Positions 4,835 through 37,516 of a stretch of 64,000 nt of DNA are shown here, piece by piece. Source of the DNA: Streptomyces antibioticus. GTDB lineage: Bacteria > Actinomycetota > Actinomycetes > Streptomycetales > Streptomycetaceae. The notes under the pieces are model-generated. The model was given only the letters and a program-made list of their open reading frames with translations, did not search any database and was not told where the DNA came from. Each line of letters begins with the position of its first letter. The stretch's first letter is position 1. Position numbers and translations under genes: made by a program. The stretch is taken from contig NZ_KQ948424.1 in assembly GCF_001514065.1 (NCBI RefSeq), positions 531,568-595,567 of the forward strand, written 5' to 3'.

Positions 4835-4864
4835 CTACGCGCGTAGGCCGGAACCGGCTACGCT
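4835..4864 (+). promoter_or_regulatory. Operator palindrome plus -10 of purine nucleoside phosphorylase
   Basis: The perfect 12-bp palindrome CTACGCGCGTAG lies at 4835-4846. TACGCT at 4859-4864 fits the TAnnnT -10 pattern and ends 7 bases before the GTG start at 4872, so the transcript is probably leaderless. The palindrome covers the -35 side, as expected for a repressor site. The same palindrome recurs at 11298, 22998 and 34704, with variants at 35992 and 37505. Confidence 0.75.
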
Positions 4865-4871
4865 CATCCGC

Positions 4872-5696
4872 GTGAACGCATCTCTTCTTCCGGACGACAT
4901 CCAGGGCGACCCGCACGCCGCCGCCGACGCCGCCGCCGCGCGCCTGCGCGAACTGACCGGCGCCGAGACCCACGACGTCGCCCTCGTGATGGGCTCCGGC
5001 TGGGCGCCGGCCGTGGACGCCCTCGGCGCTCCCGACGCCGAGTTCCAGGTCACCGAGCTGCCCGGCTTCCCGCCGCCGGCGGTCGAGGGCCACGGCGGCA
5101 AGATCCGCTCGTACCAGATCGGTGAGAAGCGCGCTCTGGTCTTCCTGGGCCGCACGCACTACTACGAGGGCCGCGGCGTGGCGGCGGTCGCGCACGGCGT
5201 CCGTACGGCGGTGGCGGCGGGCTGCAAGACGATCGTCCTCACCAACGGCTGCGGCGGTCTGCGCGAGGGCATGCGCCCCGGCCAGCCGGTCCTGATCAGC
5301 GACCACATCAACCTCACGGCGACGTCCCCGATCGTCGGCGCGAACTTCGTCGACCTGACGGACCTCTACTCGCCGCGGCTGCGCGCCCTGTGCAAGGAGA
5401 TCGACCCCACCCTCGAAGAGGGCGTGTACGCGCAGTTCCCCGGCCCGCACTACGAGACCCCGGCGGAGATCCGCATGGCCCGCGTCATCGGCGCGGACCT
5501 GGTCGGCATGTCGACGGTCCTGGAGGCCATCGCCGCGCGCGAGGCCGGCGCGGAGGTGCTCGGCATCTCCCTGGTGACGAACCTCGCGGCGGGCATGACG
5601 GGCGAGCCCCTGAACCACGAAGAGGTCCTCCAGGCGGGCCGGGATTCGGCGACGCAGATGGGCGCCCTCCTGGCCCAGGTGCTCGGCCGCATCTGA
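4872..5696 (+). CDS. Purine nucleoside phosphorylase
   Basis: 274 residues, the normal length for trimeric PNP. It splits purine (deoxy)nucleosides with phosphate into base and (deoxy)ribose-1-phosphate in the cytoplasm. The phosphate and ribose signature GRTHYYEG is at residues 93-100, TNGCGG is near 127, and VTNLAAG at 235-241 holds the base-contacting Asn237. The GTG start sits 7 bases after a TACGCT -10 box, which suggests a leaderless message. The palindrome shared with deoC, add and the nucleoside transporter lies in its promoter. A phosphomutase follows on the same strand after an inverted-repeat element. Confidence 0.95.
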
Positions 5697-5701
5697 CCGC
5701 C

Positions 5702-5840
5702 CCAGGGGGCTCCGCCCCCTGGACCCCCGGCCTTCGCCCACCCACCACCCGACTCGGTGGGTCGAAAGGTCCACCTCTTGGCCGACAGTAAACGGGTGGT
5801 GGGTAGGCATAGGCCGGGGGTCTGGGGGCGGAGCCCCAGG
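5702..5840. repeat. 139-bp imperfect inverted repeat element
   Basis: The left arm (5702-5750) and right arm (5794-5840) are near-complete reverse complements of each other, around a 43-base centre. The outer end of each arm can also fold on itself (GGGGGCTCCGCCCCC at the left, GGGGGCGGAGCCCC at the right). It fills the gap between the PNP and phosphomutase genes and has no coding potential. It resembles a MITE-like or terminator-like Streptomyces intergenic element. Confidence 0.7.
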
Positions 5841-5893
5841 GCCGCGAACCCCCACGCACCCGCACCGCACACGACGACGAGAGGCTCACCCCG

Positions 5894-7525
5894 GTGCACG
5901 ACGACCTCATCACCACCGCCAAGACCTGGCTCGCCGAGGACCCCGACCCCGAGACCCGTGACGAACTCGGCAAGCTCATCGAGGCCGGGGACGTCACCGA
6001 GCTCACCGCCCGCTTCAGCGGCACCCTCCAGTTCGGCACCGCGGGCCTGCGAGGCGAACTCGGCGCGGGCCCCATGCGCATGAACCGCGCCGTCGTCATC
6101 CGCGCCGCGGCCGGCCTCGCGGCGTACCTCAAGAAGCAGGGCAGCACCGGCGGCCTCGTCGTCATCGGCTACGACGCCCGCCACAAGTCGGCGGACTTCG
6201 CCCGCGACACCGCCGCCGTCATGACCGGCGCCGGACTCCGCGCCGCCGTCCTCCCCCGCCCCCTCCCCACCCCCGTCCTCGCGTACGCCATAAGGCACCT
6301 CGGCGCGGTCGCCGGCGTGGAGGTCACCGCCAGCCACAACCCGCCCCGCGACAACGGCTACAAGGTCTACCTCGGCGACGGCTCCCAGATCGTGCCGCCC
6401 GCCGACGCGGAGATCGCGGCGGAGATCGACGCGATCGCGAGCCTGCACGACGTCCCCCGCCCGGACGCCGGCTGGGAGACCCTCGACGACGCCGTCCTCG
6501 ACGCCTACCTGGCCCGCACGGACGCCGTACTGGCCGCGGACTCCCCCCGCACCGCCCGCACCGTCTACACGGCGATGCACGGCGTCGGCAAGGACGTCCT
6601 CCTCGCGGCGTTCGCCCGGGCCGGCTTCCCCGCCCCGGAGCTCGTCGCCGAGCAGGCCGACCCGGACCCGGACTTCCCGACCGTCGCCTTCCCCAACCCG
6701 GAGGAGCCCGGCGCGATGGACCTGGCCTTCGCGAAGGCCCGTGCGACGGACCCGGACCTGATCATCGCCAACGACCCGGACGCCGACCGCTGCGCCGTCG
6801 CCGTCAAGGCGAACGGCGACTGGCGGATGCTGCGCGGCGACGAGGTCGGCGCCCTGCTCGCCGCGCACCTGGTCAAGCGCGGAGCGCAGGGCACGTTCGC
6901 CGAGTCGATCGTCTCCTCCTCGCTCCTCGGCCGGATCGCCGAGAAGGCGGGGCTGCCGTACGAGGAGACCCTCACCGGCTTCAAGTGGATCGCCCGGGTG
7001 GACGGTCTGCGATACGGCTACGAGGAGGCCCTCGGCTACTGCGTCGACCCGGACGGCGTACGCGACAAGGACGGCATCACCGCGGCCCTGCTCATCACGG
7101 AACTGGCCTCGCAGCTCAAGGAGGAGGGCCGCACGCTCCTCGACCTGCTGGACGACCTCGCCGTCGAGCACGGTCTGCACGCCACCGACCAGCTCTCGGT
7201 GCGCGTCGAGGATCTGTCGGTCATCGCCGACGCCATGCGGCAGCTGCGCGAGCAGCCGCCCACCGAGCTCGCCGGACTCGCCATCACCAAGGCCGAGGAC
7301 CTCACCCAGGGCACGGACAGGCTCCCGCCCACGGACGGCCTGCGCTACACCCTCGACGGCGCCCGTGTCATCGTCCGCCCCAGCGGCACCGAGCCGAAGC
7401 TGAAGTGCTACCTGGAGGTCGTCGTCCCGGTCGCGACGCACGCCGGCCTCCCGGCGGCCCACGCCAAGGCGACGGACGTACTGGAGACCATCAAGCGGGA
7501 CCTGTCGGCGGCGGCCGGCATCTGA
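5894..7525 (+). CDS. Phosphohexomutase/phosphopentomutase family phospho-sugar mutase
   Basis: 543 residues with all four domains of the alpha-D-phosphohexomutase superfamily. The phosphoserine loop TASHNP carries Ser147. The metal loop NDPDADR supplies Asp294, Asp296 and Asp298. The sugar loop GDEVGALL follows, and the C-terminal phosphate loop is RPSGTEPK. Sequence alone does not separate phosphoglucomutase, phosphomannomutase and phosphopentomutase activity. Its place between PNP and deoC suggests it may interconvert (deoxy)ribose-1-phosphate and -5-phosphate, the step otherwise missing from this nucleoside route. GTG start; a strong hairpin follows the stop. Confidence 0.92.
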   Translation: MHDDLITTAKTWLAEDPDPETRDELGKLIEAGDVTELTARFSGTLQFGTAGLRGELGAGPMRMNRAVVIRAAAGLAAYLKKQGSTGGLVVIGYDARHKSADFARDTAAVMTGAGLRAAVLPRPLPTPVLAYAIRHLGAVAGVEVTASHNPPRDNGYKVYLGDGSQIVPPADAEIAAEIDAIASLHDVPRPDAGWETLDDAVLDAYLARTDAVLAADSPRTARTVYTAMHGVGKDVLLAAFARAGFPAPELVAEQADPDPDFPTVAFPNPEEPGAMDLAFAKARATDPDLIIANDPDADRCAVAVKANGDWRMLRGDEVGALLAAHLVKRGAQGTFAESIVSSSLLGRIAEKAGLPYEETLTGFKWIARVDGLRYGYEEALGYCVDPDGVRDKDGITAALLITELASQLKEEGRTLLDLLDDLAVEHGLHATDQLSVRVEDLSVIADAMRQLREQPPTELAGLAITKAEDLTQGTDRLPPTDGLRYTLDGARVIVRPSGTEPKLKCYLEVVVPVATHAGLPAAHAKATDVLETIKRDLSAAAGI

Positions 7526-7535
7526 CACACCCCTC

Positions 7536-7574
7536 CCGTTGGGGCGCCCCGGACCACTAGGGGCGCCCCAACGG
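7536..7574 (+). terminator. Hairpin terminator after phospho-sugar mutase
   Basis: A perfect 15-bp stem (7536-7550 with 7560-7574, CCGTTGGGGCGCCCC arm) with a 9-base loop lies just after the mutase stop at 7525. No U-run follows, as is usual for Streptomyces. Confidence 0.8.
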
Positions 7575-7621
7575 GTGATTTCGCGCCCGCATCCCACACC
7601 CGCTCCCCCACCCGGGAAACG

Positions 7622-8830: not shown

Positions 8831-8839
8831 CGGCCCCGC

Positions 8840-10474: not shown

Positions 10475-10577
10475 CGTCTTCCAGACACTCGGACCACGCC
10501 GGTGGTTGCGGACCTCGGGTCCGGGACGGCCGAGGAACGGGGCAGATCACGGCCCCGCGAGCGGTGAACCGCGCGGG

Positions 10578-11216: not shown

Positions 11217-11297
11217 GGGGCCGATTGTGCCCGACGGGCCGGCGGCGCTCATACGCGGTGGTGTCCGACGAGATGAGCATCCGGGGGTGTACAGCCG

Positions 11298-11316
11298 CTA
11301 CGCGCGTAGATATGCT
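11298..11316 (+). promoter_or_regulatory. Operator palindrome plus -10 of deoC operon
   Basis: CTACGCGCGTAG at 11298-11309 is followed after one base by the -10 box TATGCT at 11311-11316. The palindrome therefore lies between the -35 and -10 positions. The GTG at 11323 is 7 bases from the -10, so the message is probably leaderless. Confidence 0.78.
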
Positions 11317-11322
11317 CGTGTG

Positions 11323-12288
11323 GTGACCATGCCCACCACTGCATCTCCCGCACACGCTCTTACGGACGTGACCGCGTCCGACAGCACGCTGCGTCGCTTC
11401 CTCCACGGGCTGCCCGGCGTCGACGCGGTCGGCCTGGAGGCGCGCGCCGCCTCCCTCGGCACCCGTTCCATCAAGACCACCGCGAAGGCGTACGCCATCG
11501 ACCTCGCCATCTCGATGGTCGACCTGACGACGCTGGAAGGCGCGGACACCCCGGGCAAGGTCCGGGCGCTCGGCGCCAAGGCGGTCCACCCCGACCCGAC
11601 CGACCGGACGACCCCCGCGACCGCGGCCGTCTGCGTCTATCCCGACATGGTGGCCGCCGCCAAGGAGGCCGTCGCCGGCTCGACCGTGAAGGTCGCCTCG
11701 GTCGCCACCGCCTTCCCGGCGGGCCGCGCCGCCCTCTCCGTGAAGCTGGCCGACGTGCGTGACGCCGTCGCGGCCGGTGCGGACGAGATCGACATGGTCA
11801 TCGACCGCGGGGCGTTCCTCGCGGGCCACTACATGAAGGTGTACGACGAGATCGTCGCCGTGAAGGAGGCCTGCGGGACGTCGGCCCGCCTGAAGGTCAT
11901 CTTCGAGACCGGCGAGCTGTCGACGTACGACAACATCCGGCGGGCGAGCTGGCTCGGCATGCTGGCGGGCGCGGACTTCATCAAGACGTCCACCGGCAAG
12001 GTCGCCGTCAACGCCACCCCCGCCAACACCCTGTTGATGCTGGAGGCCGTACGGGACTTCCGTGCCGCCACCGGCGTCCAGATCGGCGTGAAGCCGGCCG
12101 GCGGCATCCGGACGACGAAGGACGCGATCAAGTTCCTGGTCCTGGTCAACGAGACGGCGGGCGAGGACTGGCTGGACAACCACTGGTTCCGCTTCGGCGC
12201 CTCCTCGCTCCTGAACGACCTGCTGATGCAGCGTCAGAAGCTGGCCACCGGCCGCTACTCCGGCCCCGACTACGTGACGGTGGACTGA
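11323..12288 (+). CDS. deoC: Deoxyribose-phosphate aldolase
   Basis: About 321 residues. It cleaves 2-deoxyribose-5-phosphate to glyceraldehyde-3-phosphate and acetaldehyde, the last step of deoxynucleoside breakdown. The Schiff-base lysine is Lys221 in FIKTSTGK and the partner lysine is Lys257 in GVKPAGGI. The N-terminal extension relative to the 250-residue bacterial enzyme is typical of the actinobacterial form. The GTG at 11323 is chosen because it lies 7 bases after TATGCT (leaderless); ATG 11329 is the alternative. The two aldehyde dehydrogenase-like genes follow at 6-base and overlapping spacing, so one operon would oxidise the acetaldehyde made here. Confidence 0.94.
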   Translation: MTMPTTASPAHALTDVTASDSTLRRFLHGLPGVDAVGLEARAASLGTRSIKTTAKAYAIDLAISMVDLTTLEGADTPGKVRALGAKAVHPDPTDRTTPATAAVCVYPDMVAAAKEAVAGSTVKVASVATAFPAGRAALSVKLADVRDAVAAGADEIDMVIDRGAFLAGHYMKVYDEIVAVKEACGTSARLKVIFETGELSTYDNIRRASWLGMLAGADFIKTSTGKVAVNATPANTLLMLEAVRDFRAATGVQIGVKPAGGIRTTKDAIKFLVLVNETAGEDWLDNHWFRFGASSLLNDLLMQRQKLATGRYSGPDYVTVD

Positions 12289-12293
12289 TCCAC

Positions 12294-13730
12294 ATGGCAT
12301 CTGCATTCGAGTACGCACCGGCGCCCGAGTCCCGCTCCGTCGTCGACATCGCGCCCTCCTACGGCCTGTTCATCGACGGCGAGTTCACGGAAGCCGCCGA
12401 CGGCAAGGTCTTCAAGACGGTCTCGCCGTCCACCGAGGAGGTGCTGTCCGAGATCGCCCAGGCGGGCGAGGCGGACGTCGACCGCGCGGTGGCGGCCGCC
12501 CGCAAGGCCTTCGAGAAGTGGTCGGCGCTGCCCGGCTCCGAGCGCGCCAAGTACCTGTTCCGCATCGCCCGGATCATCCAGGAGCGCAGCCGCGAACTGG
12601 CCGTCCTGGAGACCCTGGACAACGGCAAGCCCATCAAGGAGACCCGCGACGCCGACCTCCCCCTGGTCGCCGCGCACTTCTTCTACTACGCGGGCTGGGC
12701 CGACAAGCTCGACCACGCCGGCTTCGGCGCGAACCCGCGCCCCCTCGGCGTCGCGGGCCAGGTCATCCCCTGGAACTTCCCCCTCCTCATGCTGGCGTGG
12801 AAGATCGCCCCGGCGCTGGCGACCGGCAACACGGTCGTCCTCAAGCCCGCCGAGACCACCCCCCTCTCGGCGCTGTTCTTCGCGGACATCTGCCGCCAGG
12901 CCGGTCTCCCCAAGGGCGTCGTCAACATCCTTCCGGGATACGGCGACACGGGCGCCGCGCTCGTCGCGCACCCGGACGTCAACAAGGTCGCCTTCACCGG
13001 CTCCACGGCCGTCGGCAAGCAGATCGCCCGCACGGTCGCGGGCACGTCGAAGAAGCTGACCCTCGAACTGGGCGGCAAGGGCGCCAACATCGTCTTCGAC
13101 GACGCCCCGATCGACCAGGCCGTCGAGGGCATCGTCAGCGGCATCTTCTTCAACCAGGGCCAGGTCTGCTGCGCGGGCAGCCGCCTCCTCGTCCAGGAGT
13201 CGATCCAGGACGAGCTGCTGGACTCCCTCAAGCGCCGCCTGTCCACGCTCCGCCTCGGCGACCCGCTGGACAAGAACACGGACATCGGCGCGATCAACTC
13301 CGAGGAGCAGCTCGCCCGGATCACCTCGCTCGTCGAGCAGGGCGAGGCGGAGGGCGCCGAGCGCTGGTCCCCGGCCTGCGAACTCCCCTCCTCCGGCTAC
13401 TGGTTCGCCCCGACGCTCTTCACGAACGTCACCCAGGCGCACACCATCGCGCGGGACGAGATCTTCGGCCCGGTGCTGTCGGTGCTGACCTTCCGCACGC
13501 CGGACGAGGCCGTCGCCAAGGCCAACAACAGCCAGTACGGCCTGTCGGCGGGCATCTGGACGGAGAAGGGCTCGCGCATCCTCGCCGTGGCCAACAAGCT
13601 CCGTGCGGGCGTCATCTGGTCCAACACGTTCAACAAGTTCGACCCGACCTCGCCGTTCGGCGGTTACAAGGAGTCGGGCTTCGGCCGCGAGGGCGGCCGC
13701 CACGGCCTGGAGGCGTACCTCGATGTCTGA
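12294..13730 (+). CDS. Aldehyde dehydrogenase
   Basis: 478 residues, full-length NAD(P)-dependent aldehyde dehydrogenase. The cofactor loop VIPWNFPLLM, general base Glu258 in LELGGKG and catalytic Cys292 in NQGQVCCAGSR are all present; FGGYKESGFGREGG near the end is the oligomerisation and cofactor region. It starts 6 bases after deoC and overlaps the next gene by 8 bases, so the three genes are surely co-transcribed under the palindrome-bearing deoC promoter. The natural substrate is plausibly the acetaldehyde released by DeoC, by context only. Confidence 0.93.
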   Translation: MASAFEYAPAPESRSVVDIAPSYGLFIDGEFTEAADGKVFKTVSPSTEEVLSEIAQAGEADVDRAVAAARKAFEKWSALPGSERAKYLFRIARIIQERSRELAVLETLDNGKPIKETRDADLPLVAAHFFYYAGWADKLDHAGFGANPRPLGVAGQVIPWNFPLLMLAWKIAPALATGNTVVLKPAETTPLSALFFADICRQAGLPKGVVNILPGYGDTGAALVAHPDVNKVAFTGSTAVGKQIARTVAGTSKKLTLELGGKGANIVFDDAPIDQAVEGIVSGIFFNQGQVCCAGSRLLVQESIQDELLDSLKRRLSTLRLGDPLDKNTDIGAINSEEQLARITSLVEQGEAEGAERWSPACELPSSGYWFAPTLFTNVTQAHTIARDEIFGPVLSVLTFRTPDEAVAKANNSQYGLSAGIWTEKGSRILAVANKLRAGVIWSNTFNKFDPTSPFGGYKESGFGREGGRHGLEAYLDV

Positions 13731-14607: not shown

Positions 14608-14624
14608 CGAGGGCCGCAGAGACC

Positions 14625-15227: not shown

Positions 15228-15866
15228 GTGAGTTCCCCTTCGTCCATACCTGCGCGCGTCGTGCTGCTGTGCGGCCCCTCCGGCTCCGGCAAGTCCCTTC
15301 TCGCGGCCCGCTCCGGCCTCCCGGTGCTGCGCCTCGACGACTTCTACAAGGAAGGCGACGACCCGACGCTGCCGCTGGTGGCGGGGAGTTCCGACATCGA
15401 CTGGGACCACCCCGACTCGTGGGACGCGGACGCGGCGGTCGCCGCGCTCACCGAGCTGTGCCGCACGGGCCGTACGGACGTCCCGCAGTACGACATCTCG
15501 CTCAGCGCCATCACCGGCAAGGAGACCGTGGACATCGGGCGGACCCCGCTGTTCATCGCGGAGGGCATCTTCGCCGCCGAGATCGTCACGCGCTGCCGGG
15601 AGATCGGCGTCCTCGCCGACGCGCTGTGTCTGAGCCGCGGCCCCGTGCAGACGTTCCGCCGGCGCTTCCTGCGCGACCTCAAGGAGGGCCGCAAGTCGGT
15701 GCCGTTCCTGCTGCGCCGCGGCTGGCGGCTGATGCGCCTGGAGCGCACGATCATCGCCCGCCAGACGGCACTGGGCGCCCACGCCTGCGACAAGGACGAG
15801 GCACTGGGCCGGCTGGCAGCAGCGGCGGCGGGACGCCGTCCGGCGGCTTCGGCGCAGGCGGGCTGA
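15228..15866 (+). CDS. Uridine kinase-like P-loop NTPase
   Basis: 212 residues from GTG 15228. The Walker A loop GPSGSGKS is at residues 14-21. It is followed by the LDDFYK substrate segment typical of uridine/cytidine kinases and phosphoribulokinases, DWDHPDSWD, and FIAEGIF corresponding to the Walker B strand. A lid region rich in Arg (QTFRRRFLRDLKEGRKS) follows. It would phosphorylate a pyrimidine nucleoside with ATP, matching the nucleoside theme of the region, though no copy of the shared palindrome lies upstream. The start is close to a possible -10, so it may be leaderless. Confidence 0.85.
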   Translation: MSSPSSIPARVVLLCGPSGSGKSLLAARSGLPVLRLDDFYKEGDDPTLPLVAGSSDIDWDHPDSWDADAAVAALTELCRTGRTDVPQYDISLSAITGKETVDIGRTPLFIAEGIFAAEIVTRCREIGVLADALCLSRGPVQTFRRRFLRDLKEGRKSVPFLLRRGWRLMRLERTIIARQTALGAHACDKDEALGRLAAAAAGRRPAASAQAG

Positions 15867-21817: not shown

Positions 21818-22981
21818 TCAGCCCTCTTCCCCGACAGAACCGCTGGTGGAAGCGGTCTGCTGGAACAGCCATTCGGACTTCAGCTCGGCATATCCGGGCT
21901 TGATGACGTCATTGATCATCGCCAGTCGTTCATCGAAAGGAATGAACGCTGATTTCATCGCATTGACGGAGAACCACTGCATGTCGTCGAGCGTGTAGCC
22001 GAATGCTCCGACCAGATGCTCGAATTCACGGCTCATGCTGGTGCCGGACATCAGCCGGTTGTCGGTGTTGACCGTGGCCCGGAAATGCAGCCGCCGCAGC
22101 AGCCCGATCGGGTGCTCGGCATAGGAGGCGGCGGCGCCGGTCTGGAGGTTGGAACTGGGGCACAGCTCCAGCGGGATGCGCTTGTCGCGGACGTACGAGG
22201 CGAGCCGGCCGAGCTTGACACTCCCGTCGTCCTGCACCTCGATGTCGTCGATGATCCGCACCCCGTGGCCGAGCCGGTCGGCGCCGCACCACTGGAGCGC
22301 CTGCCAGATCGACGGCAGCCCGAAGGCCTCCCCGGCGTGGATGGTGAAGTGGTTGTTCTCCCGCTTGAGGTACTCGAAGGCGTCGAGGTGCCGGGTGGGC
22401 GGGAATCCGGCCTCGGCGCCCGCGATGTCGAAGCCGACGACGCCCAGGTCGCGGTAGCGGTTGGCGAGTTCGGCGATCTCCAGCGCGCGGGCGGCGTGCC
22501 GCATGGCGGTGAGGAGGGCACCGACGCGGATGCGGTACCCGTCTTCCCTGGCCCGCCGCTCGCCTTCCCGGAAGCCCTCGTTGACGGCCTCGACGACCTC
22601 TTCGAGGGTCAGCCCCTTCTCCAGGTGCTGTTCGGGCGCGTACCGCACCTCGGCGTAGACGACCCCGTCCGCGGCGAGGTCCTCGGCGCACTCGGCGGCG
22701 ACCCGCACCAGCGCGTCCCGGGTCTGCATCACGCCGACGGTGTGCGAGAAGGTCTCCAAGTACCGTTCCAGCGAACCGGAGTCGGCGGCCTCACGGAACC
22801 AGATGCCGAGCTTGTCGGCGTCGTGCTCGGGGAGTTGGGTGTACCCGGTCTCCCGGGCGAGCTCGACGACGGTGCCGGGACGCAGCCCGCCGTCGAGGTG
22901 ATCGTGCAGCAGAACCTTGGGCGCCCGGCGGATCTGGTCCGAGCTCGGGGTCTTCCCCATCCGGTCAGTCTGGCTCGTCAT
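21818..22981 (-). CDS. add: Adenosine deaminase
   Basis: 387 residues. It hydrolyses (deoxy)adenosine to (deoxy)inosine, feeding purine nucleoside phosphorylase. The metal ligands HDHLDG near residue 27, the substrate loop GFDIAGAE, the third zinc His in [10 protein letters not shown], the catalytic-site His in RLGHGVRI and the terminal NTDNRLMSG Asp motif are all present. The ATG at 22981 lies 6 bases after a TAGAGT -10, so it is probably leaderless. The shared palindrome at 22998-23009 sits immediately upstream in the promoter, linking it to the nucleoside regulon. Confidence 0.95.
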
Positions 22982-22987: not shown

Positions 22988-23009
22988 ACTCTAACTCCTA
23001 CGCGCGTAG
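22988..23009 (-). promoter_or_regulatory. Operator palindrome plus -10 of add
   Basis: CTACGCGCGTAG at 22998-23009. On the minus strand it is followed four bases later by TAGAGT (22993-22988), which fits TAnnnT, then 6 bases to the ATG at 22981. The palindrome lies between the -35 and -10 positions. Confidence 0.77.
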
Positions 23010-27716: not shown

Positions 27717-27871
27717 CGCAGCCCCGGTGCGAGGACCTGTCGTGGGCGGGCTGTCCACCGACCGGGATCACATTGACCTGCGACCCTTCTGCCCCGGAGG
27801 GTTAGGTGCATGCCCCACATATCGGCACCGCCCCTGATCTCGCACGCCCTTCTCACCGGTGAGGAGGCTCC

Positions 27872-28792: not shown

Positions 28793-28819
28793 CGCCGGGC
28801 CCACGGCAGGGCACATGGA

Positions 28820-28851
28820 GAAGGGCCGGCGCCCGCAGGCACCGGCCCTTC
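28820..28851. terminator. Hairpin between AEC gene and deoA
   Basis: AAGGGCCGG (28821-28829) pairs with CCGGCCCTT (28842-28850). It is located between two convergent stops, so it probably works in both directions. Confidence 0.75.
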
Positions 28852-28863
28852 CCTCGGCGTGGC

Positions 28864-30147
28864 TCAGGCGATGCGCTCCAGCACCACCGGCGACGCCGTG
28901 AAGTCCGTACCCGCCGCGGCGATGTCGTAGGAACCCTCGATCGCCTGGAGGGCGTACTCGAAGCGTTCCGGGGTGTCCGTGTGGAGGGTCAGGAGGGGCT
29001 GGCCCTCCGTCACCGTGTCGCCGGGCTTGGCGTGCATCTCGATGCCCGCGCCCGCCTGCACCGGGTCCTCCTTGCGGGCGCGGCCCGCGCCGAGGCGCCA
29101 GGCGGCGACGCCGATGTCGTAGGCGTCCAGGCGGGTCAGGACGCCGGAGGCGCCCGCCTTGATCACGTGCTGCTCCTTCGCCACCGGCAGCTCCGCGTCC
29201 GGGTCGCCGCCCTGGGCCGCGATCATCCGGCGCCAGACGTCCATCGCGGAGCCGTCGGCCAGGGCCTTCGCCGGGTCGGCGTCCTTCACGCCCGCCGCGT
29301 CCAGCATCTCGCGGGCCAGGGCGATGGTCAGCTCGACCACGTCCGCCGGGCCGCCGCCCGCCAGGACCTCCACCGACTCGCGGACCTCCAGGGCGTTGCC
29401 CGCCGTGAGGCCGAGGGGGGTCGACATGTCCGTCAGGAGCGCCACTGTCTTCACGCCGTGGTCGGTGCCCAGGCCGACCATCGTCGACGCCAGTTCCCGC
29501 GCGTCCTCGATCGTCTTCATGAAGGCGCCGGAGCCGACCTTCACGTCCAGGACCAGGGAGCCCGTGCCCTCCGCGATCTTCTTGGACATGATCGAGGAGG
29601 CGATGAGGGGGATCGCCTCGACGGTTCCCGTCACGTCGCGCAGGGCGTACAGCTTCTTGTCGGCCGGGGCCAGGCCGTCGCCCGCCGCGCAGATGACCGC
29701 GCCGGTGGTGTCGAGGACGTGCAGCATCTCCTCGTTGGAGAGCAGCGCGCGCCAGCCGGGGATCGACTCCAGCTTGTCCAGGGTGCCGCCGGTGTGGCCG
29801 AGGCCGCGGCCGGAGAGCTGGGGCACGGCCGCGCCACAGGCCGCCACCAGGGGGGCCAGCGGCAGCGTGATCTTGTCGCCGACGCCGCCCGTGGAGTGCT
29901 TGTCCGCCGTCGGCAGGGAGAGGGACGAGAAGTTCATGCGCTCGCCGGACGCGATCATCGCGGCGGTCCAGCGGGAGATCTCGCGGCGGTTCATGCCGTT
30001 GAGGAGGATGGCCATGTTCAGCGCGGCCATCTGGTAGTCGGCGACCTCGCCGCGGGTGTACGCGTCGATGACCCAGTCGATCTGCTCGTCGCTGAGCTCA
30101 CCGCGGTCCCGCTTGGTGCGGATGACGGAGATGGCGTCCATGGCCAT
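28864..30147 (-). CDS. deoA: Thymidine phosphorylase
   Basis: 427 residues. It splits thymidine and deoxyuridine to base and deoxyribose-1-phosphate. The phosphate loop KHSTGGVGDK, the family signature GRGLGHTGGTLDKLESIPG and the pyrimidine-site KIAEGTGSLVLDVKVGSGAF segment are present. ATG 30147 has GGAAGGAA seven bases before it. It is the last gene of a five-gene operon (ABC ATPase, two permeases, cdd, deoA) reading leftwards, with 75 bases between cdd and deoA. The operon promoter carries the shared palindrome. Confidence 0.95.
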   Translation of the reverse strand: MAMDAISVIRTKRDRGELSDEQIDWVIDAYTRGEVADYQMAALNMAILLNGMNRREISRWTAAMIASGERMNFSSLSLPTADKHSTGGVGDKITLPLAPLVAACGAAVPQLSGRGLGHTGGTLDKLESIPGWRALLSNEEMLHVLDTTGAVICAAGDGLAPADKKLYALRDVTGTVEAIPLIASSIMSKKIAEGTGSLVLDVKVGSGAFMKTIEDARELASTMVGLGTDHGVKTVALLTDMSTPLGLTAGNALEVRESVEVLAGGGPADVVELTIALAREMLDAAGVKDADPAKALADGSAMDVWRRMIAAQGGDPDAELPVAKEQHVIKAGASGVLTRLDAYDIGVAAWRLGAGRARKEDPVQAGAGIEMHAKPGDTVTEGQPLLTLHTDTPERFEYALQAIEGSYDIAAAGTDFTASPVVLERIA

Positions 30148-30222
30148 GGATTTCCTTCCGGACGTTCACAGAAATCGCGCGGCCCCCCTGACCGGTTCCG
30201 ATCCAGAGGGGCCGCACGGGAG

Positions 30223-30627
30223 TTACTTGGAGGTGAGGTGCCCCGGCCCGAAGGCCTGCGGCAGCATCTCCGACAGCGGCAGGATTCCCGCCGGTGTCTC
30301 CAGCAGCAGGTCGGGGCCGCCGAACTCGTACAGCAGTTGCCGGCAGCGGCCGCACGGGACGAGGACCTCGCCCCGGCCGTCGACGCAGGTGAAGTGCGTC
30401 AGGCGGCCGCCCCCGGTGCGCTGCAACTCGGAGACCAGCCCGCACTCGGCGCACAGGCCCAGGCCGTAGCTGGCGTTCTCGACGTTGCAGCCGGTGACCG
30501 TGCGGCCGTCGTCGACGAGGGCCGCGACGCCGACCGGGTAGCCCGAGTAGGGGGCGTACGCGTGGCTCATCGCCTCGCGTGCCAGCTCCCTCAGGGACTC
30601 CCAGTCGAAATCGGCGGAGACGGTCAC
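30223..30627 (-). CDS. cdd: Cytidine deaminase
   Basis: 134 residues, the short homotetrameric form. Substrate contacts CNVENASYGL, catalytic Glu and first zinc Cys in LCAECGL, and the two further zinc Cys in VPCGRCRQLL are all seen. It converts (deoxy)cytidine to (deoxy)uridine for thymidine/uridine phosphorolysis by the neighbour deoA. The GTG start overlaps the stop of the upstream permease by four bases, which shows operon coupling to nucleoside uptake. Confidence 0.95.
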   Translation of the reverse strand: MTVSADFDWESLRELAREAMSHAYAPYSGYPVGVAALVDDGRTVTGCNVENASYGLGLCAECGLVSELQRTGGGRLTHFTCVDGRGEVLVPCGRCRQLLYEFGGPDLLLETPAGILPLSEMLPQAFGPGHLTSK

Positions 30628-31886
30628 TTGCCTTGGCCCTTCCGGTACGGCAAGCCGTCCGCCTTCGGCATCCTCAGGCGCTGCGCGGACAGCGACAGGA
30701 CGAGGAGGGTGATGACGTACGGGCTGGCGGTCACGACCTGGTTCGGGACGTCGTCGGTGGTGGCGTACCAGACGAACATCAGGGCCGAGATCGCGGCGGT
30801 GATGGCGGCGGGGACGTACTTCTTCTTCCAGACGAGGTACGCGACGCCGAACACCAGCAGGATCGCGAGCAGCAGGATCAGCGCGTGGACGTTGGTGGTG
30901 CCGCCGCGCAGCTTGAGGCTGTCGGTGTAGCCGAACAGGCCCGCGCCGAGGGCGAGTCCGCCCGGCATCCAGTTACCGAAGATCATCGCGGCGAGACCGA
31001 TGTAGCCGCGGCCGGCCGTCTGGCCGTCGAGGTACACGTTGGACGAGACGATCGACAGGAAGGCACCGCCGAGGCCGGCGAAGCCGCCGGAGACGATCAC
31101 GGCGATGTACTTGTACTTGTAGACGTTGACGCCGAGGGACTCCGCCGCGATCGGGTTCTCGCCGCAGGAGCGCAGCCGCAGTCCGAACGAGGTGCGCCAC
31201 AGCACGTACCAGGTGGCGGGTACGAGGGCGACGGCGACGACGGTGAGCGGCGACAGGTCGGTGATCAGACCGCCGACGAGGCCGGCGATGTCGGAGACCA
31301 GGAACCAGTGCTTCTGGTTGAGGGTCTCCAGCCAGCTGGACAGCCCGGGGATGTCGAAGGTGCCGAGCGAGTCGATCGGCGGGGACTGCTTGGAGGAGCC
31401 CTGCGGGGCGTCCTCGAAGGTGAACTTCGACAGATAGCGGGTGGTGCCGAGGGCCAGGATGTTCAGGGCCACACCGGAGACGATGTGGTTGACGTTGAAG
31501 GTGACCGTGGCGATGGCGTGCAGGACGGCGCCGAGCGCGCCGCCGATGATGCCGACGACGACGCCGGTCCACGGGCCCCACTGGTAGCCGGCCCAGGCGC
31601 CGAACCAGGTGCCGAGGATCATCATGCCCTCGAGGCCGATGTTGACGACGCCCGCCCGCTCGGCCCAGAGACCGCCGAGGCCGGCGAGGCCGATCGGGAC
31701 GGCCGCGCGCAGGGCGGTGGACATCTGGCCGGTGGAGGTGATGCCGTCCGCGCCGGTGATGAGGCGGACGATGGACGTCAGGATCAGGACGCCCGAGATG
31801 ATCAGGAGGAGGACGGGCAGCGACATGCGGCGGCCGCCCTTGCCGGGCTGCTTCGCCGGTGCCTTGGCGATGGTCGCGGTGCTCAT
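30624..31886 (-). CDS. Nucleoside ABC transporter permease 2
   Basis: 420 residues, BPD_transp_2 (LivM/YufQ-like) fold with about ten membrane helices. Conserved segments are AERAGVVNIGLEGMMILGTWFGAW near residue 75-96 and GGFAGLGGAFLSIVSS, RGYIGLAAMIFGNW further on. It forms the membrane channel with the adjacent permease and ATPase. Its ATG shares one base with the stop of the preceding permease, and it overlaps cdd by four bases. An additional 80-residue C-terminal hydrophobic part (KKKYVPAAITAAISAL onwards) is longer than in Bacillus YufQ. Confidence 0.92.
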   Translation of the reverse strand: MSTATIAKAPAKQPGKGGRRMSLPVLLLIISGVLILTSIVRLITGADGITSTGQMSTALRAAVPIGLAGLGGLWAERAGVVNIGLEGMMILGTWFGAWAGYQWGPWTGVVVGIIGGALGAVLHAIATVTFNVNHIVSGVALNILALGTTRYLSKFTFEDAPQGSSKQSPPIDSLGTFDIPGLSSWLETLNQKHWFLVSDIAGLVGGLITDLSPLTVVAVALVPATWYVLWRTSFGLRLRSCGENPIAAESLGVNVYKYKYIAVIVSGGFAGLGGAFLSIVSSNVYLDGQTAGRGYIGLAAMIFGNWMPGGLALGAGLFGYTDSLKLRGGTTNVHALILLLAILLVFGVAYLVWKKKYVPAAITAAISALMFVWYATTDDVPNQVVTASPYVITLLVLSLSAQRLRMPKADGLPYRKGQGK

Positions 31887-33007
31887 CAGACCGCCACCTC
31901 CTTCTTGGTGTTCTGGGCGGCGGCCGCGGCGAGTTCCTCACCGACGCGCTTCTGCTGCCGGCGCAGGCCCCAGGTGCGGACGACCTCGTAGGAGATGACG
32001 ACCGCGAACACGATCAGGCCCTGCATGATCGTGGCGATCTCCTTCTCGTACGGCTCGGGAGTCGCGTAGTCGAGAGCGGGGGACGCCTTGTCGAGGAAGG
32101 CCCACAGCAGGGCGGCGAGCGCGATGCCGCCGGGGTTGTTGCGGCCCAGCAGGGCGATGCCGATCGCGGTGAAGCCGAGGCCGGCCGGGAAGCTGAGGCT
32201 GTACGTGTGGACGTCGCCGAGGAGCAGCGGCAGACCGGAGATGCCGGCGACGGCGCCGGAGATCAGCATCGCGGTGAGGACCATGCGCTTGGCGTTGACG
32301 CCGGAGGCCGCGGCGGCGGTCTCGGAGGCGCCGGTGGCGCGCAGGTCGAAGCCGAAGCGGGTGCGGTTGAGGACGAACCAGTAGCCGATGCCCATGGCGA
32401 TGGCGAGGAAGACCAGGCCGTAGATCTCGCCGACGTCGGAGCCGAGGTCGATGCCGGGGACCCAGCCGGACTCCTTCATCACACCGGTGGTGACGTTGTC
32501 GCCGAGCGGGACGCCCCAGTTGTCGGTGAGGGTGAGGTAGCCGATGAGGCTGGTGGCGATCGAGTTCAGCATGATCGTCGCGACGACCTCGCTGACGCCC
32601 CGGGTGACCTTCAGGACGCCCGCGATACCGGCCCACATGGCGCCGGTGAGCGCGCCGACCAGGAGCAGCAGCGGCACCTGGAGGGCGGCCGGCAGCGCCA
32701 CATGGGCGCCGACCACGGCGGTCATCATGGCGCCGAGGCGGTACTGGCCGTCGACGCCGATGTTGAAGAGGTTCATGCGGAAGCCGAGGGCGACCGCGAG
32801 GGCGGCGATGTAGTACAACGACGCCTGGTTGATGATCAGGACCTGGACGTCGGAATAGCCGGCCTGCTCGATCATCAGCCGGTAGGGCTCGATCGGGCTC
32901 TTGCCGGAGGCGATCAGCACGACCGAGGTCAGCAGGATCGCCGCGACGAGCGCCAGGGCCGGACCGGCCACGGCGAGGAGCAGGCGCTCCTTGTCGAACT
33001 TCTTCAT
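31886..33007 (-). CDS. Nucleoside ABC transporter permease 1
   Basis: 373 residues, YufP-like. Conserved FRMNLFNIGVDGQYRLGAMM is the permease hallmark, followed by VLKVTRGVSEVVATIMLNSIA and GLGFTAIGIALLGRNNPGGI; about nine membrane helices are predicted. The ATG overlaps the ATPase stop by four bases. With the second permease it makes the heterodimeric pore of a BMP-type importer that in other bacteria takes up purine and pyrimidine nucleosides. Confidence 0.92.
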   Translation of the reverse strand: MKKFDKERLLLAVAGPALALVAAILLTSVVLIASGKSPIEPYRLMIEQAGYSDVQVLIINQASLYYIAALAVALGFRMNLFNIGVDGQYRLGAMMTAVVGAHVALPAALQVPLLLLVGALTGAMWAGIAGVLKVTRGVSEVVATIMLNSIATSLIGYLTLTDNWGVPLGDNVTTGVMKESGWVPGIDLGSDVGEIYGLVFLAIAMGIGYWFVLNRTRFGFDLRATGASETAAAASGVNAKRMVLTAMLISGAVAGISGLPLLLGDVHTYSLSFPAGLGFTAIGIALLGRNNPGGIALAALLWAFLDKASPALDYATPEPYEKEIATIMQGLIVFAVVISYEVVRTWGLRRQQKRVGEELAAAAAQNTKKEVAV

Positions 33008-34674
33008 CGGGCCTCGTCCTCCGGGGCGGATTCGGCGGCTGCTTCCGCGCCGTTCTCTACGTGCTCAAGGTGTCCGGATGCGGCACCGGTCATCGCGGAG
33101 CCGAGTTCCTCCGGGGTGATCGTCGCGGGGTTGGCGTCGGCGACCAGCCTGCCGTCGTAGATCACCCGCAGGGTGTCCGACAGGCCGATGAGCTCGTCCA
33201 GGTCGGCGGAGATCAGCAGCACCGCCAGGCCCTCGCGGCGGGCGTCGCGGATGCGGTCCCAGATCTGGGCCTGTGCGCCGACGTCCACACCGCGGGTGGG
33301 GTGGGCGGCGATCAGGAACTTCGGGTCGTGGCTCATCTCGCGGCCGACGATCAGCTTCTGCTGGTTGCCGCCGGACAGGGAGGCGGCGGTGACGTCGATG
33401 CCGGGGGTGCGGACGTCGTACTCCTCGACGATCCGGCGGGTGTCGGCCTGGGCGCCCTTGGGGTTGAGCCAGACGCCCTTGGCGTTGGGGGCCTCGGTGA
33501 CATGGCCGAGGATGCGGTTCTCCCAGAGGGGGGCCTCCAGGAGCAGGCCCTGGCGGTGGCGGTCCTCGGGGATGTAGCCGACGCCGGACTCGCGGCGCTT
33601 GCGGGTGGGCCAGGGGGTGATGTCCTCGCCGAGGAAGGCGATGCTGCCGGAGTCGGCGTTCTTGGTGCCGATCAGCGCGTCGATGAGCTCGGTCTGGCCG
33701 TTGCCCTCGACACCGGCGATGCCCATGACCTCACCGGCGTGGATGGTGAAGGTGACGTCGTCGAGGACCTTCTTGATCTCGCCGCCGGCTTCGACGAGGG
33801 AGCCGGGGCCGACGGGCTCGGCCTCGACGCCCATGGAGGCGCCGCCGCTGGCGTAGACGGTGAGGCCCTTGACCTCGATGACGGCCTTGTCGGTGACGGT
33901 CGACTCGGCGGTCTCGGGGGTGGGCAGTTCGCTGCCGACCATCATCTCGGCGAGCTGACGCGGGGTGGTCTCGGAGGGGACGGCCGTGCCCACGGTGGTG
34001 CCGCGCCGGATGACGGTGATGTCGTCGGCGACGGACAGCACCTCGCCCAGCTTGTGCGAGATGAAGATGACCGACAGGCCCTCGGACTTGAGCTCGCGCA
34101 GGTTGTCGAAGAGCGCGTCGACCTCCTGCGGCACGAGGACCGCGGTGGGCTCGTCGAGGATCAGGGTGCTGGCGCCCCGGTAGAGGACCTTGAGGATCTC
34201 GACGCGCTGGCGCTCGGCGACACCGAGGTCCTCGACGAGGACGTCGGGGCGCACGTTGAGCCCGTAGCGGTCGGAGATCTCCTTGATCTTCTTGCGGGCG
34301 CCGCCGCCGATGCCGTACAGCTTCTCGCTGCCCAGGACCACGTTCTCCAGGACGGTGAGGTTGTCGGCGAGCATGAAGTGCTGGTGGACCATGCCGATGC
34401 CGCGGGAGATGGCGTCGGCGGGGCTGCCGAAGGTCACCTGCGTGCCCGCGACCGCGATGGTGCCCTCGTCCGGCTTCTGCATGCCGTAGAGGATCTTCAT
34501 CAGGGTCGACTTGCCGGCGCCGTTCTCGCCGACGAGGGCGTGGACGGTGCCCTTTCGTACCGTCAGGTGGATGTCGTGGTTGGCGACGACACCCGGGAAC
34601 CGCTTGGTGATCCCCGCCAGCTCGACGGCGATCGTCGACTGATCGGTGAGCGGAGGGCTGCTGGTCGCGTCGAT
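33004..34674 (-). CDS. Nucleoside ABC transporter, duplicated ATP-binding protein with apparent ATC start
   Basis: About 556 residues with two ABC domains in tandem. Domain 1 has Walker A GENGAGKST, signature LGVAERQRVEILK and Walker B LILDEPTAVL. Domain 2 has the degenerate P loop GVEGNGQTEL, signature LSGGNQQK and Walker-B FLIAAHPTRGVD. This is the layout of YufO/NupA and RbsA-type ATPases. No ATG, GTG or TTG is in frame between the upstream stop (34726-34728) and the Met after domain 1 Walker A. AAGGAG lies 8 bases before an ATC at 34674, which is taken as the start. A sequencing indel is the alternative. Confidence 0.88.
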   Translation of the reverse strand: MDATSSPPLTDQSTIAVELAGITKRFPGVVANHDIHLTVRKGTVHALVGENGAGKSTLMKILYGMQKPDEGTIAVAGTQVTFGSPADAISRGIGMVHQHFMLADNLTVLENVVLGSEKLYGIGGGARKKIKEISDRYGLNVRPDVLVEDLGVAERQRVEILKVLYRGASTLILDEPTAVLVPQEVDALFDNLRELKSEGLSVIFISHKLGEVLSVADDITVIRRGTTVGTAVPSETTPRQLAEMMVGSELPTPETAESTVTDKAVIEVKGLTVYASGGASMGVEAEPVGPGSLVEAGGEIKKVLDDVTFTIHAGEVMGIAGVEGNGQTELIDALIGTKNADSGSIAFLGEDITPWPTRKRRESGVGYIPEDRHRQGLLLEAPLWENRILGHVTEAPNAKGVWLNPKGAQADTRRIVEEYDVRTPGIDVTAASLSGGNQQKLIVGREMSHDPKFLIAAHPTRGVDVGAQAQIWDRIRDARREGLAVLLISADLDELIGLSDTLRVIYDGRLVADANPATITPEELGSAMTGAASGHLEHVENGAEAAAESAPEDEAR

Positions 34675-34703
34675 GGCGCACTCTCCTTGTGGAAGGGGCC
34701 ACT

Positions 34704-34740
34704 CTACGCGCGTAGCGCCCCTGCTTTAAATAGTGCCCGG
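34704..34740 (-). promoter_or_regulatory. Operator palindrome and probable promoter of the nucleoside transporter operon
   Basis: The perfect CTACGCGCGTAG at 34704-34715 lies upstream of the ATPase gene. On the minus strand an AT-rich TATTTAAA stretch (about 34727-34734) precedes the palindrome and may be the -10. That would place the operator at or just past the transcription start, unlike the other sites. Confidence 0.7.
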
Positions 34741-34791
34741 ACCTGATCGTCCATTTTCGGCCAACGATCCGTTCCGAGCATTCTGCCGCGC

Positions 34792-34830
34792 GAACGGGGC
34801 GCGGAGAGCCATGGTCTCCGCACCCCGTTC
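34792..34830 (-). terminator. Hairpin terminator after the first BMP lipoprotein gene
   Basis: A 16-bp arm at 34792-34807 pairs with 34815-34830 with one mismatch (GAACGGGGCGCGGAGA arm), with a 7-base loop. It separates the lipoprotein gene from the downstream ABC operon promoter. Confidence 0.8.
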
Positions 34831-34889
34831 CGCGGCCGTAACGCTGCCATTACAGCGCTTATTTGGCCAAGGCCTGTGACCGGGTGGGG

Positions 34890-35936
34890 TCAGGAGGTCT
34901 TCACCTTGATGGAGCCGTCCTTGATGCCCGCGACGGCCTTCTCGATCGCGGCCTGGGTGTCCTTGTTGTCCGCGAAGACCGGGTTGGAGTTCGACAGGCT
35001 CACGCCGCCGTTGGAGAGGCTGCCGCGGATGACGCCGGTCTCCGGCTTGCCGTCCTCGACGGACTTGGCCAGGTCGTAGACCGCGCCCTCGACGTTCTTC
35101 ATGGCGGAGGTCAGGATCGAGGCCTTGTAGGCCTTGAGCGCGTCCTGCTTGTACTGGTCGGAGTCGACGCCGATCGCCCAGATCTTGTGGGCGTTGGCGG
35201 CCTTGATGACGCCCTGGCCGGACAGACCGGCGGCGGCGTAGACGACGTCCGCCTTGTCGTCGATCTGGCCCTCGGCGGCGGCCTCGCCCTTGTCCGGGCT
35301 GGAGAAGCCACCCTCGGCGGCGGTCTCGGTCAGGTACTGCGACTTGACCGTGACGCCCTTCTTGGTGTCCTCGACGCCCTGCTTGAAGCCGGCCTCGAAC
35401 TTGTGGATCAGCGGCACGTCCACACCGCCGATGAAGCCGACCACGTTGGTCTTGGTGGTCTTGGCGGCGGCGACGCCGGCCAGGTAGGAGGCCTGCTCCT
35501 CGGAGAAGACGAGGTCGGCGACGTTGTCGGCCTTGATCTGCTCGTCGTCGACGACGCCGAAGGTGGTCTTCGGGTACTTGGCCGCGACCTCCTTGACGGC
35601 GGGCGCGTAGGCGAAGCCGACACCGATGACCGGGTTGTAGCCCTGCTTGGCCAGGTTCTCCAGGCGCTGAGCCTTGTCCGCGTCCGACTCGCCGTCCTGC
35701 GGCTCGACGGCGTTGGACTTGTAACCGAACTCCTTGTCGGCCTTCTCCATGCCGGCGGTCGCGGCGTCGTTGAAGGACTGGTCGCCCTTGCCGCCGACGT
35801 CGTACGCCAGGGCGAGGCCCAGGTTCTTGCTGTCGCTGTTCGACGACTCGCTGGACGAGCTGCCGCACGCGGACGCGGTCAGGGCAAGGGCTGCGGTTGC
35901 AACGCCTGCAACCGTGATACGGGACACCCGGCGCAT
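34890..35936 (-). CDS. BMP-family nucleoside-binding lipoprotein A
   Basis: 348 residues from ATG 35936 with AAAGGAG upstream. A signal peptide with lipobox ASAC lipidates Cys24. The BMP/PnrA fold is complete: LALAYDVGGKGDQSFNDAA, PVIGVGFAYAPAVKEVAAKYP, ASYLAGVAAAKTTKTNVVGFIGG, GLSGQGVIKAA, WAIGVDSDQY. In PnrA-like proteins the DxSFN Asp/Phe/Asn residues hold the nucleoside, and they are kept here. It delivers ligand to the ABC transporter encoded just downstream. It is about 65% alike to its neighbour copy B by eye. Confidence 0.94.
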   Translation of the reverse strand: MRRVSRITVAGVATAALALTASACGSSSSESSNSDSKNLGLALAYDVGGKGDQSFNDAATAGMEKADKEFGYKSNAVEPQDGESDADKAQRLENLAKQGYNPVIGVGFAYAPAVKEVAAKYPKTTFGVVDDEQIKADNVADLVFSEEQASYLAGVAAAKTTKTNVVGFIGGVDVPLIHKFEAGFKQGVEDTKKGVTVKSQYLTETAAEGGFSSPDKGEAAAEGQIDDKADVVYAAAGLSGQGVIKAANAHKIWAIGVDSDQYKQDALKAYKASILTSAMKNVEGAVYDLAKSVEDGKPETGVIRGSLSNGGVSLSNSNPVFADNKDTQAAIEKAVAGIKDGSIKVKTS

Positions 35937-35987
35937 GGAACGAGACTCCTTTGTGCAAGCGCCCAAACCAGGCGCTGGTTCCGCCGC

Positions 35988-36003
35988 AGCGTAACGCGCG
36001 TAG
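35988..36003 (-). promoter_or_regulatory. Variant operator overlapping -10 of BMP lipoprotein A
   Basis: On the minus strand CTACGCGCGTTA (36003-35992) keeps one arm of the shared palindrome. It runs directly into TACGCT (35993-35988), a TAnnnT -10 box. The operator thus overlaps the -10. The leader to the ATG is about 45 bases. Confidence 0.72.
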
Positions 36004-36081
36004 ACCAGACGGAAAACCCCTTCTGTCCGGTCCGTTATCGAGCTGTGGCCACAGATGCAACACAGACTACGGACAGCAGTA

Positions 36082-36285
36082 CGCCCCTTGCGGGAGGCAA
36101 GGGGCGGGCGTCGAATTCGCGCCGTCCGCCCGAAGGGCGGGCCCTGCCGAGCCTGGTGCGTGCGATCGCAAGGCGCCGGGGCGTCCTCGTGGCGGAGCCA
36201 CGTGGGCGGTCCGGCAACGCGGCGAGCGTGCGTGCCAGGCTCGGCGGGGCAGGCGGGAATTCGACGCCCGCCCCTTCAGGGGCGT
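36082..36285. repeat. Long inverted-repeat element between the two BMP genes
   Basis: A perfect 20-bp inverted repeat (AAGGGGCGGGCGTCGAATTC at 36099-36118; complement at 36257-36276) encloses 138 bases. Inner arms continue to pair imperfectly (GCCTGG with CCAGGC, GTGCGTGCGA with GCGTGCGTGC). Each outer end has its own small hairpin (36082-36106; about 36270-36285). No open frame fits it. It could be a MITE or a very long terminator. Confidence 0.75.
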
Positions 36286-36336
36286 ATGAGCTGCAAGGGC
36301 GCCCGGGCGGGCGTATCCGGGGGTCCCAGTGGGGCC

Positions 36337-37419
36337 TTAGTCGGTGGTCTTGACCGTGACCTTGCCGTCGATGATGTCCTGCTTGGCCTTGTCCACGGCC
36401 GCGACGACATCCGTCATGGCCTTGTACTTCGGGTTGGAGTCGGCGAAGCCGACGCCGCCGGACTTCAGGTCGCCGCGCTGGACGCCGGTGAGGGGCTTGC
36501 CCTCGTAGACGGACTTGGCGAGGTCGTAGACCGCGCCGCCGACGTTCTTGAGGGCCGAGCCGAGGATGTAGTCCTTGTAGCTCTTCAGCGCGCTCTGGTT
36601 GTACTGGTCGGAGTCCACGCCGATGGCCCACACCTTCTTGGAGGCGGCCTCGGAGATCACGCCCTGGCCGGAGAGACCGGCGGCGTGGTAGATGACGTCG
36701 GCGCCCTTCTCGATCTGGCCGCTGGCCGCCGCCTTGCCCTTGTCAGGGCTGGAGAAACCGCCCTCGGCCGGGGTCTCGGTCAGGTACTGCGACTCGATCT
36801 TGATCTTCGGGTCGACGGACTGGACGCCCTGCTTGAAGCCCGCGCCGAACTTGTGGATCAGCGGGATGTCCACGCCGCCGATGAAGCCGACGTGCTTGGC
36901 CTTGGAGGCCTTGGCGGCGGCGACGCCCGCGAGGTAGGAGGCCTGCTCCTCGGAGAAGACCATGTCGGCGACGTTGGCGGCCTTGACCTGCTCGTCGTCG
37001 ATGACGCCGAACGTGATCTTCGGGTACTTCGCGGCGACCTCCTTCACCGCCGGCGCGTAGATGTAACCGACGCCGATGATGGGGTTGTAGCCGGCCTTGG
37101 CGAGCTGCTCCAGGCGCTGGACCTTGTCCGCGTCGGACTCGCCGTCCTGCGGCTCGATGTCCCGGCCGCCGATCTTGAATTCCTTCTCGGCCTTCTCGAA
37201 GCCGGCGTAGGCGGCGTCGTTGAAGGACTGGTCGCCCTTGCCGCCGATGTCGTACGCGAGCCCGATGCCCTTGCCCGAGTACTTGCCGTCCGCCGAGGTG
37301 GACGCCTTGTCACTGTCGGCCTTGGTGCTGGACTCGCCGCACCCGACAGCCGTGAGGGCGATGACCGACGCGGCCACCACTGCTTGAGAGAACCTGGTCC
37401 TCCGAGATATCCGACGCAC
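36337..37419 (-). CDS. BMP-family nucleoside-binding lipoprotein B
   Basis: 360 residues from GTG 37419 with GAAGGGG upstream. Lipobox TAVGC lipidates Cys27. It has the same BMP segments as copy A (LAYDIGGKGDQSFNDAAYAG, PIIGVGYIYAPAVKEVA, GFIGGVDIPLIHKFGAGFKQ, WAIGVDSDQYNQ). The two are tandem paralogues with separate promoters bearing the same variant operator. Different ligand ranges for a shared transporter are plausible. The 5' end of its promoter region is at 37501-37516. Confidence 0.94.
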   Translation of the reverse strand: MRRISRRTRFSQAVVAASVIALTAVGCGESSTKADSDKASTSADGKYSGKGIGLAYDIGGKGDQSFNDAAYAGFEKAEKEFKIGGRDIEPQDGESDADKVQRLEQLAKAGYNPIIGVGYIYAPAVKEVAAKYPKITFGVIDDEQVKAANVADMVFSEEQASYLAGVAAAKASKAKHVGFIGGVDIPLIHKFGAGFKQGVQSVDPKIKIESQYLTETPAEGGFSSPDKGKAAASGQIEKGADVIYHAAGLSGQGVISEAASKKVWAIGVDSDQYNQSALKSYKDYILGSALKNVGGAVYDLAKSVYEGKPLTGVQRGDLKSGGVGFADSNPKYKAMTDVVAAVDKAKQDIIDGKVTVKTTD

Positions 37420-37500
37420 AGCAAGCACCCCTTCATCCCCACGGCACCGTCCTACGGCCCCGCATCCCCAATGTGCCGCCAACGGTGGCGATTTCGGCGC

Positions 37501-37516
37501 ACAGTAACGCGCGTAG
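37501..37516 (-). promoter_or_regulatory. Variant operator overlapping -10 of BMP lipoprotein B
   Basis: CTACGCGCGTTA (37516-37505 on the minus strand) is followed without a gap by TACTGT (37506-37501), a TAnnnT -10 box. The layout is the same as for copy A. Confidence 0.72.

Follow-up and report, generated by a model that had tools for sequence, protein, structure and literature searches.

The window examined here, a 64,000-nucleotide stretch of the Streptomyces antibioticus contig NZ_KQ948424.1, carries genes for the uptake and breakdown of nucleosides on both of its strands. On the plus strand, the purine nucleoside phosphorylase gene pnp (4872-5696; NCBIfam TIGR01698 above cut-off) is followed by a phosphohexomutase-family gene (5894-7525; Pfam PGM_PMM I-IV) whose product could possibly be a phosphopentomutase, and the deoxyribose-phosphate aldolase gene deoC (11323-12288; TIGR00126 above cut-off), starting at GTG 11323 or ATG 11329, precedes an aldehyde dehydrogenase gene (12294-13730; Pfam Aldedh). 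The minus strand holds the adenosine deaminase gene add (21818-22981; NF006847 above cut-off) and an operon that runs from the ATPase of a putative nucleoside ABC transporter (33004-34674; NCBIfam ABC ATPase matches below cut-off) through permease 1 (31886-33007, assigned by operon position and conservation) and permease 2 (30624-31886; NF047928, below cut-off) to cdd, encoding cytidine deaminase (30223-30627; NF004064 above cut-off), and deoA, encoding thymidine/pyrimidine-nucleoside phosphorylase (28864-30147; NF004490 above cut-off). Two BMP/PnrA-like substrate-binding lipoproteins are encoded upstream on the same strand (34890-35936, NF047927, BMP-type, below cut-off; and 36337-37440, start approximate, Pfam Bmp). 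A DeoR-family regulator gene (1643-2611, minus strand; Pfam HTH_DeoR and DeoRC) lies near the beginning of the window.

These genes share a 12-bp palindrome, CTACGCGCGTAG. Perfect copies precede pnp (4835-4846), deoC (11298-11309, with the hexamer TATGCT at 11311-11316 beginning one base later), add (22998-23009) and the ABC-cdd-deoA operon (34704-34715), exactly where the first-pass annotation had placed them; for the site at 22998 the position stands, with the correction that the gene it serves is add on the minus strand, at 21818-22981. The two copies with one altered arm that had been described before the BMP genes are likewise present, at 35992-36003 and 37505-37516, as TAACGCGCGTAG, or CTACGCGCGTTA when read with the gene. 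None of 100 dinucleotide shuffles of the window contained a perfect CTACGCGCGTAG. With up to two mismatches allowed, the window yields seven matches, a loose count that is not significant on its own because 11 of the 100 shuffles also reach seven; the seventh match, CTGCGCGCGTCG at 15250, does not lie at a nucleoside gene.

A genome-wide count, one of the checks proposed earlier, found five perfect copies in the 10.1 Mb of the 29 contigs, versus none for a reversed control pattern, and all five are at nucleoside genes. The fifth (C10:387406) falls at the beginning of another adenosine deaminase gene, add2 (Pfam A_deaminase), starting 7 bases past the first base of the ATG, and five relatives have a copy of the palindrome at the same gene. 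The looser pattern CTACGCGCGT occurs at 45 distinct sites (50 strand hits) of this genome, compared with 20 for its reversed control; 12 of the 45 are at the targets argued for here, two are at weak candidates and 31 show no evident link to nucleic acids.

The palindrome is kept throughout the family. All 61 genomes of the genus contain two to six perfect copies, 231 in total versus 37 for the reversed control, and the perfect 12-mer was found in 120 of 121 family genomes and in 16 of 17 genera, which supports the earlier proposal that the uptake and breakdown of nucleosides share one operator. In the one genome without a perfect copy, G362, the sites at pnp, deoC and add depart from the palindrome at one or two positions. 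Loci were compared across 20 family genomes from 15 other genera, each represented by one or two adjacent chunks of at most 20 kb, and in most of them the sites precede pnp, deoC, add, the ABC operon and the BMP genes even where these genes are inverted or have moved. The gaps are partly those of the material: G374 is a short contig with deoR alone, G397 yielded pnp with its site and nothing else, the stretch read for G356 holds no add, and a number of contigs or stretches stop short of the ABC genes. In four genomes (G356, G364, G367 and G376) the ATPase gene is not immediately preceded by a site; the first three of these keep the BMP variant further upstream.

Upstream regions were scored at up to two mismatches over the family loci, the best 80 of more than 583 matches to a deoA scan, and the own genome. 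All 80 deoA-scan loci belong to Streptomyces or [Kitasatospora] papulosa, no outgroup operons being among the matches listed; hits below 45% identity were set aside, as were four rows of site-bearing targets with an unaligned N-terminus or short upstream DNA. On this basis a site is located upstream of pnp in 20/20 loci, deoC in 19/19, add in 77/78, the ABC ATPase gene in 82/88 and the BMP genes in 126/126, compared with 0/89 for permease 1 and 2/95 for cdd. Of 95 deoA loci, 32 have weaker variants nearby, 31 of these with one mismatch. The exceptions among the targets are one add promoter (L403) and six ATPase promoters (G356, G357, G364, G367, G376 and L427). In four further genomes (G354, G355, G370 and G382) the ATPase is just 43-44% identical and was kept out of the 88 promoters; there, no site directly precedes the ATPase gene and a site with one or two mismatches is found about 1.4-1.5 kb upstream. 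For five targets, the site carries 1.85-1.98 bits of information per base versus 0.34-0.75 in the flanks, in an alignment on the motif that itself favours the site.

Twenty perfect-site loci of relatives, picked from among the matches listed, comprise five add2 genes, eight of the usual targets, one UshA-like gene, one purSQ region and five loci with no evident link. Outside the family, at least one perfect copy occurs in 10 of 268 genomes. Nine such copies, in seven of these ten genomes (all but G168, G219 and G299), were read in 5- to 8-kb stretches, which contained no homologue of the query genes of the window, of add2 or of the four further targets described below.

A further observation concerns the start of the ABC ATPase. 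Translation probably begins at an ATC (34672-34674, minus strand) with 34674 as its first base, upstream of the ATG at 34500, as judged from the comparison of homologues. Of 87 ATPase copies, 84 have an ATC 4-11 bases past a sequence of the AGGAG type, one has ATT in its place, and two were unscored. In 37 of the 84 copies, the stretch leading from the upstream stop codon (or over 150 bases) to the conserved I[TS]KRFPGV motif contains no ATG, GTG or TTG, and the other 47 could possibly use a canonical start further in. A conserved AUC start codon in the nucleoside ABC ATPase is a possible reading of these sequences.

The variant in front of the BMP genes is not a decayed copy. CTACGCGCGTTA is present in all 126 BMP promoters, and the altered arm is the rule there. 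Read with the gene, this arm opens with TAcnnT, a -10-like hexamer, which suggests that operator and promoter share bases at these genes. More generally, palindrome and -10-like hexamer overlap, or the hexamer begins 1 to 4 bases further on, at deoC, add, the BMP genes, ushA and the ABC operon of the window, and the palindrome of pnp could cover a -35. At deoC and add a start codon follows the -10 by 6 bases, which makes a leaderless transcript probable and would leave the site outside the RNA. The proposal that the positions relative to the -10 fit repression agrees with these hexamers, which are consensus matches and hence predicted elements rather than mapped starts; as predicted, the sites overlap or abut core promoters, which is compatible with transcriptional control and suits steric repression.

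Closeness to the -10 in several promoters, together with the alternating CGCGCG core, might also be expected of a promoter element for an alternative sigma factor, or of a DNA-structure element (Z-DNA, methylation), instead of a repressor operator. Such an element appears highly improbable, since the palindrome has two-fold symmetry, its distance to the -10 varies, and it comes after the apparent -10 at a cyclic-phosphodiesterase-like gene and a nuclease gene. Variants at purS such as CTACCCGCGTAG, moreover, break the alternation and yet are conserved.

The last three genes mentioned belong to a set of four further targets, to which a scan of the own genome for one-arm variants pointed. Each of the proteins concerned was sought in 31 genomes of the genus, with matches in 30, 31, 27 and 31 genomes and at most 30 loci kept. 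Within the 500-600 bases upstream, a site with up to two mismatches was found in 30/30 loci of a UshA-like nucleotidase; in 27/30 loci of a secreted ExeM/NucH-like nuclease, ten of which have two sites, with L253, one of the three promoters lacking such a site, offering just 203 upstream bases; in 30/30 loci of a cyclic-phosphodiesterase/3'-nucleotidase-like gene, four of them from a second paralogue group; and in 30/30 loci of the purS/Lsr2-like intergenic region (purSQ). As a control, 90 palindromes with shuffled half-sites gave means of 0.8 to 1.1 of 30 and largest values of 7 to 16. The names of these targets derive from Pfam and NCBIfam: both nucleotidase-like proteins pass the Pfam cut-offs for 5_nucleotid_C and Metallophos, and the NCBIfam matches of these two and of the nuclease are below the curated cut-offs. 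The gene beside purS, matched by no NCBIfam model, is called Lsr2-like from a reading of its sequence. The purS palindrome is situated near a possible -35, and it could instead serve the divergent Lsr2-like gene. The regulon as predicted is wider than the first-pass annotation described.

The purS/Lsr2-like site (L020, about 1501; L284-L313) differs in character from the other one-arm targets: it keeps both outer arms, which they do not, and mostly its positions 5 and 8 vary between species. One-arm sites are also found at the starts of a secreted GmrSD_C-type nuclease gene and an acid phosphatase gene (L316:1501 and L351:1501), both weak candidates, and a similar site at an M4-like protease (L353) may be a coding coincidence.

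Taken together, CTACGCGCGTAG, with its core CTACnCGnGTAG, is very probably an operator that serves one dimeric transcription factor, most probably a repressor, in a family-wide regulon. The sequence comparisons lend good support to a single operator shared by the degradation of nucleic acids and the uptake and catabolism of nucleosides. The regulon would extend from the secreted nuclease and nucleotidases over BMP-type ABC nucleoside uptake to intracellular deamination, phosphorolysis and deoxyribose-phosphate cleavage. Briefly, the protein would bind the palindromes and repress by occluding the core promoters, and a nucleoside-derived metabolite would release it. Candidate signals are the products of the pathway, namely (deoxy)ribose phosphates, nucleosides and bases, any of which could serve. 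That a single unrecognised regulator acts on the nuclease or nucleases, the nucleotidases, uptake and catabolism, and possibly on the Lsr2-like gene or purSQ, with the ATPase started from ATC as a further element, is a fuller reading to which we give an even chance.

The regulator may well be encoded outside the window. Within it, the first-pass annotation had offered the DeoR gene at 1643-2611 as a candidate by position, and this idea gains no support from the site counts: a site with up to two mismatches is upstream of deoR in 0/21 loci and of lpd in 0/20. That this protein is the repressor, released by (deoxy)ribose phosphate, is accordingly unlikely, even with several features in its favour. 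The gene lies about 1.3 kb or less from lpd, in the pnp cluster, in 19 of 20 relatives (the contig of the twentieth ends there); a homologue (E <= 1e-50) is present in 121/121 genomes of the family, in G421 as two separate pieces; the protein has a DeoR-type sensor domain by Pfam; and across 24 family loci the first 60 residues hardly change, with identity over the whole protein falling to 75%. Against it, the protein scores 72.6 bits with the E. coli DeoR equivalog model, whose cut-off is 244, and so falls short of an E. coli DeoR orthologue.

Homologues outside the family add a weak argument against DeoR. At 22 outgroup loci, where the protein is 53-71% identical and has the same or nearly the same helix, the palindrome has no copies at zero or one mismatch and 11 at two mismatches; 60 palindromes with shuffled halves gave 37 on average (4 to 263). 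This lack says little: the loci contain no match to the nucleoside enzymes, so that the absence of a site would be no surprise, and five of the 22 encode an ABC ATPase with about 30% identity to the window's. A different motif, TGATCGG/CCGATCA, is present within 250 bases upstream of deoR at 6 of the 22 outgroup loci, among which are four of the five closest (L109 being the one without it), and at 1 of 24 family loci; upstream of the outgroup genes at L104-L107 it is perhaps their own operator, which is only a hint. The DNA-binding domain of DeoR (first 60 codons, L131-L154), so constant over 16 genera and with no regulon site at its own promoter, may recognise numerous separate targets, or may belong to the regulator after all.

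The window's DeoR gene is presumably SCO4920, and SdrA of S. avermitilis would, as a guess, be an orthologue of its product. SCO4920 is tabulated as a DeoR family regulator (PMC4848846) and is the centre of a network module enriched in sigma factors (PMC3224704). SdrA is a DeoR-family regulator by a title cited in PMC8062868, and thus belongs to the same broad protein family.

The palindrome itself offers a hint of another kind. Across 457 site copies with up to two mismatches, the central CpG is never altered, the next position is variable, the two beyond it are nearly constant, and a site can do without one outer arm, leaving the core CTACnCGnGTAG. Operators of the LacI family, such as those of CcpA and GalR, likewise have an unchanged central CpG followed by a variable position, and the core with its constant CpG is therefore a hint of a LacI-type protein. 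A LacI-family, CytR-like repressor encoded elsewhere is a tentative candidate on these grounds. The third position from the centre, which is usually A/T in LacI-family operators and is C/G in the palindrome, speaks against it. A search of the window and of ten 20-kb pieces of this genome for the helix pattern of LacI-type proteins found no match, and the gene for such a repressor need not be linked. Two more regulators are encoded in the cluster, by a response regulator gene in 15/15 and a LysR-type gene in 14/15 of the compared genomes; the former is presumably AfsQ1-like, and the usual site types of AfsQ1-like and LysR-type regulators differ from the palindrome. A survey of LacI regulons, furthermore, names no nucleoside regulator for Streptomycetaceae in the parts of its main text available to us (PMC4052901).

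The predicted operator is thus a real, family-wide finding, larger in scope than first reported. It yields a purely sequence-based prediction of how the main antibiotic producers turn on their use of nucleic acids as a source of carbon, nitrogen and phosphorus, with secreted enzymes joined to the intracellular pathway under one signal, and the exact 12-base sequence provides a bait for capturing the missing regulator. In the literature searched, covering titles and the beginnings of abstracts and mostly outside subscription papers, no Streptomyces nucleoside operator of this kind was encountered, and the exact 12-mer appeared, by title or abstract start, only in works on DNA structure and GapR. 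Within this literature the operator and its scope appear new, and the kind of system is familiar.

The closest parallel is the CytR/DeoR regulon of E. coli, which jointly controls nucleoside uptake, deoCA, cdd and the phosphorylases. It differs in using two repressors and another operator, and to our knowledge it includes no secreted nuclease or nucleotidases. Among actinobacteria, UriR/RbsR of corynebacteria exert LacI-family control over the use of uridine and ribose, with no link to the palindrome in the accessible parts of PMC4052901. Control of nucleoside transport is also the task of NupR, the nucleoside permease regulator of Bacillus thuringiensis (PMC9430930), which is a GntR/HutC-family protein from another phylum.
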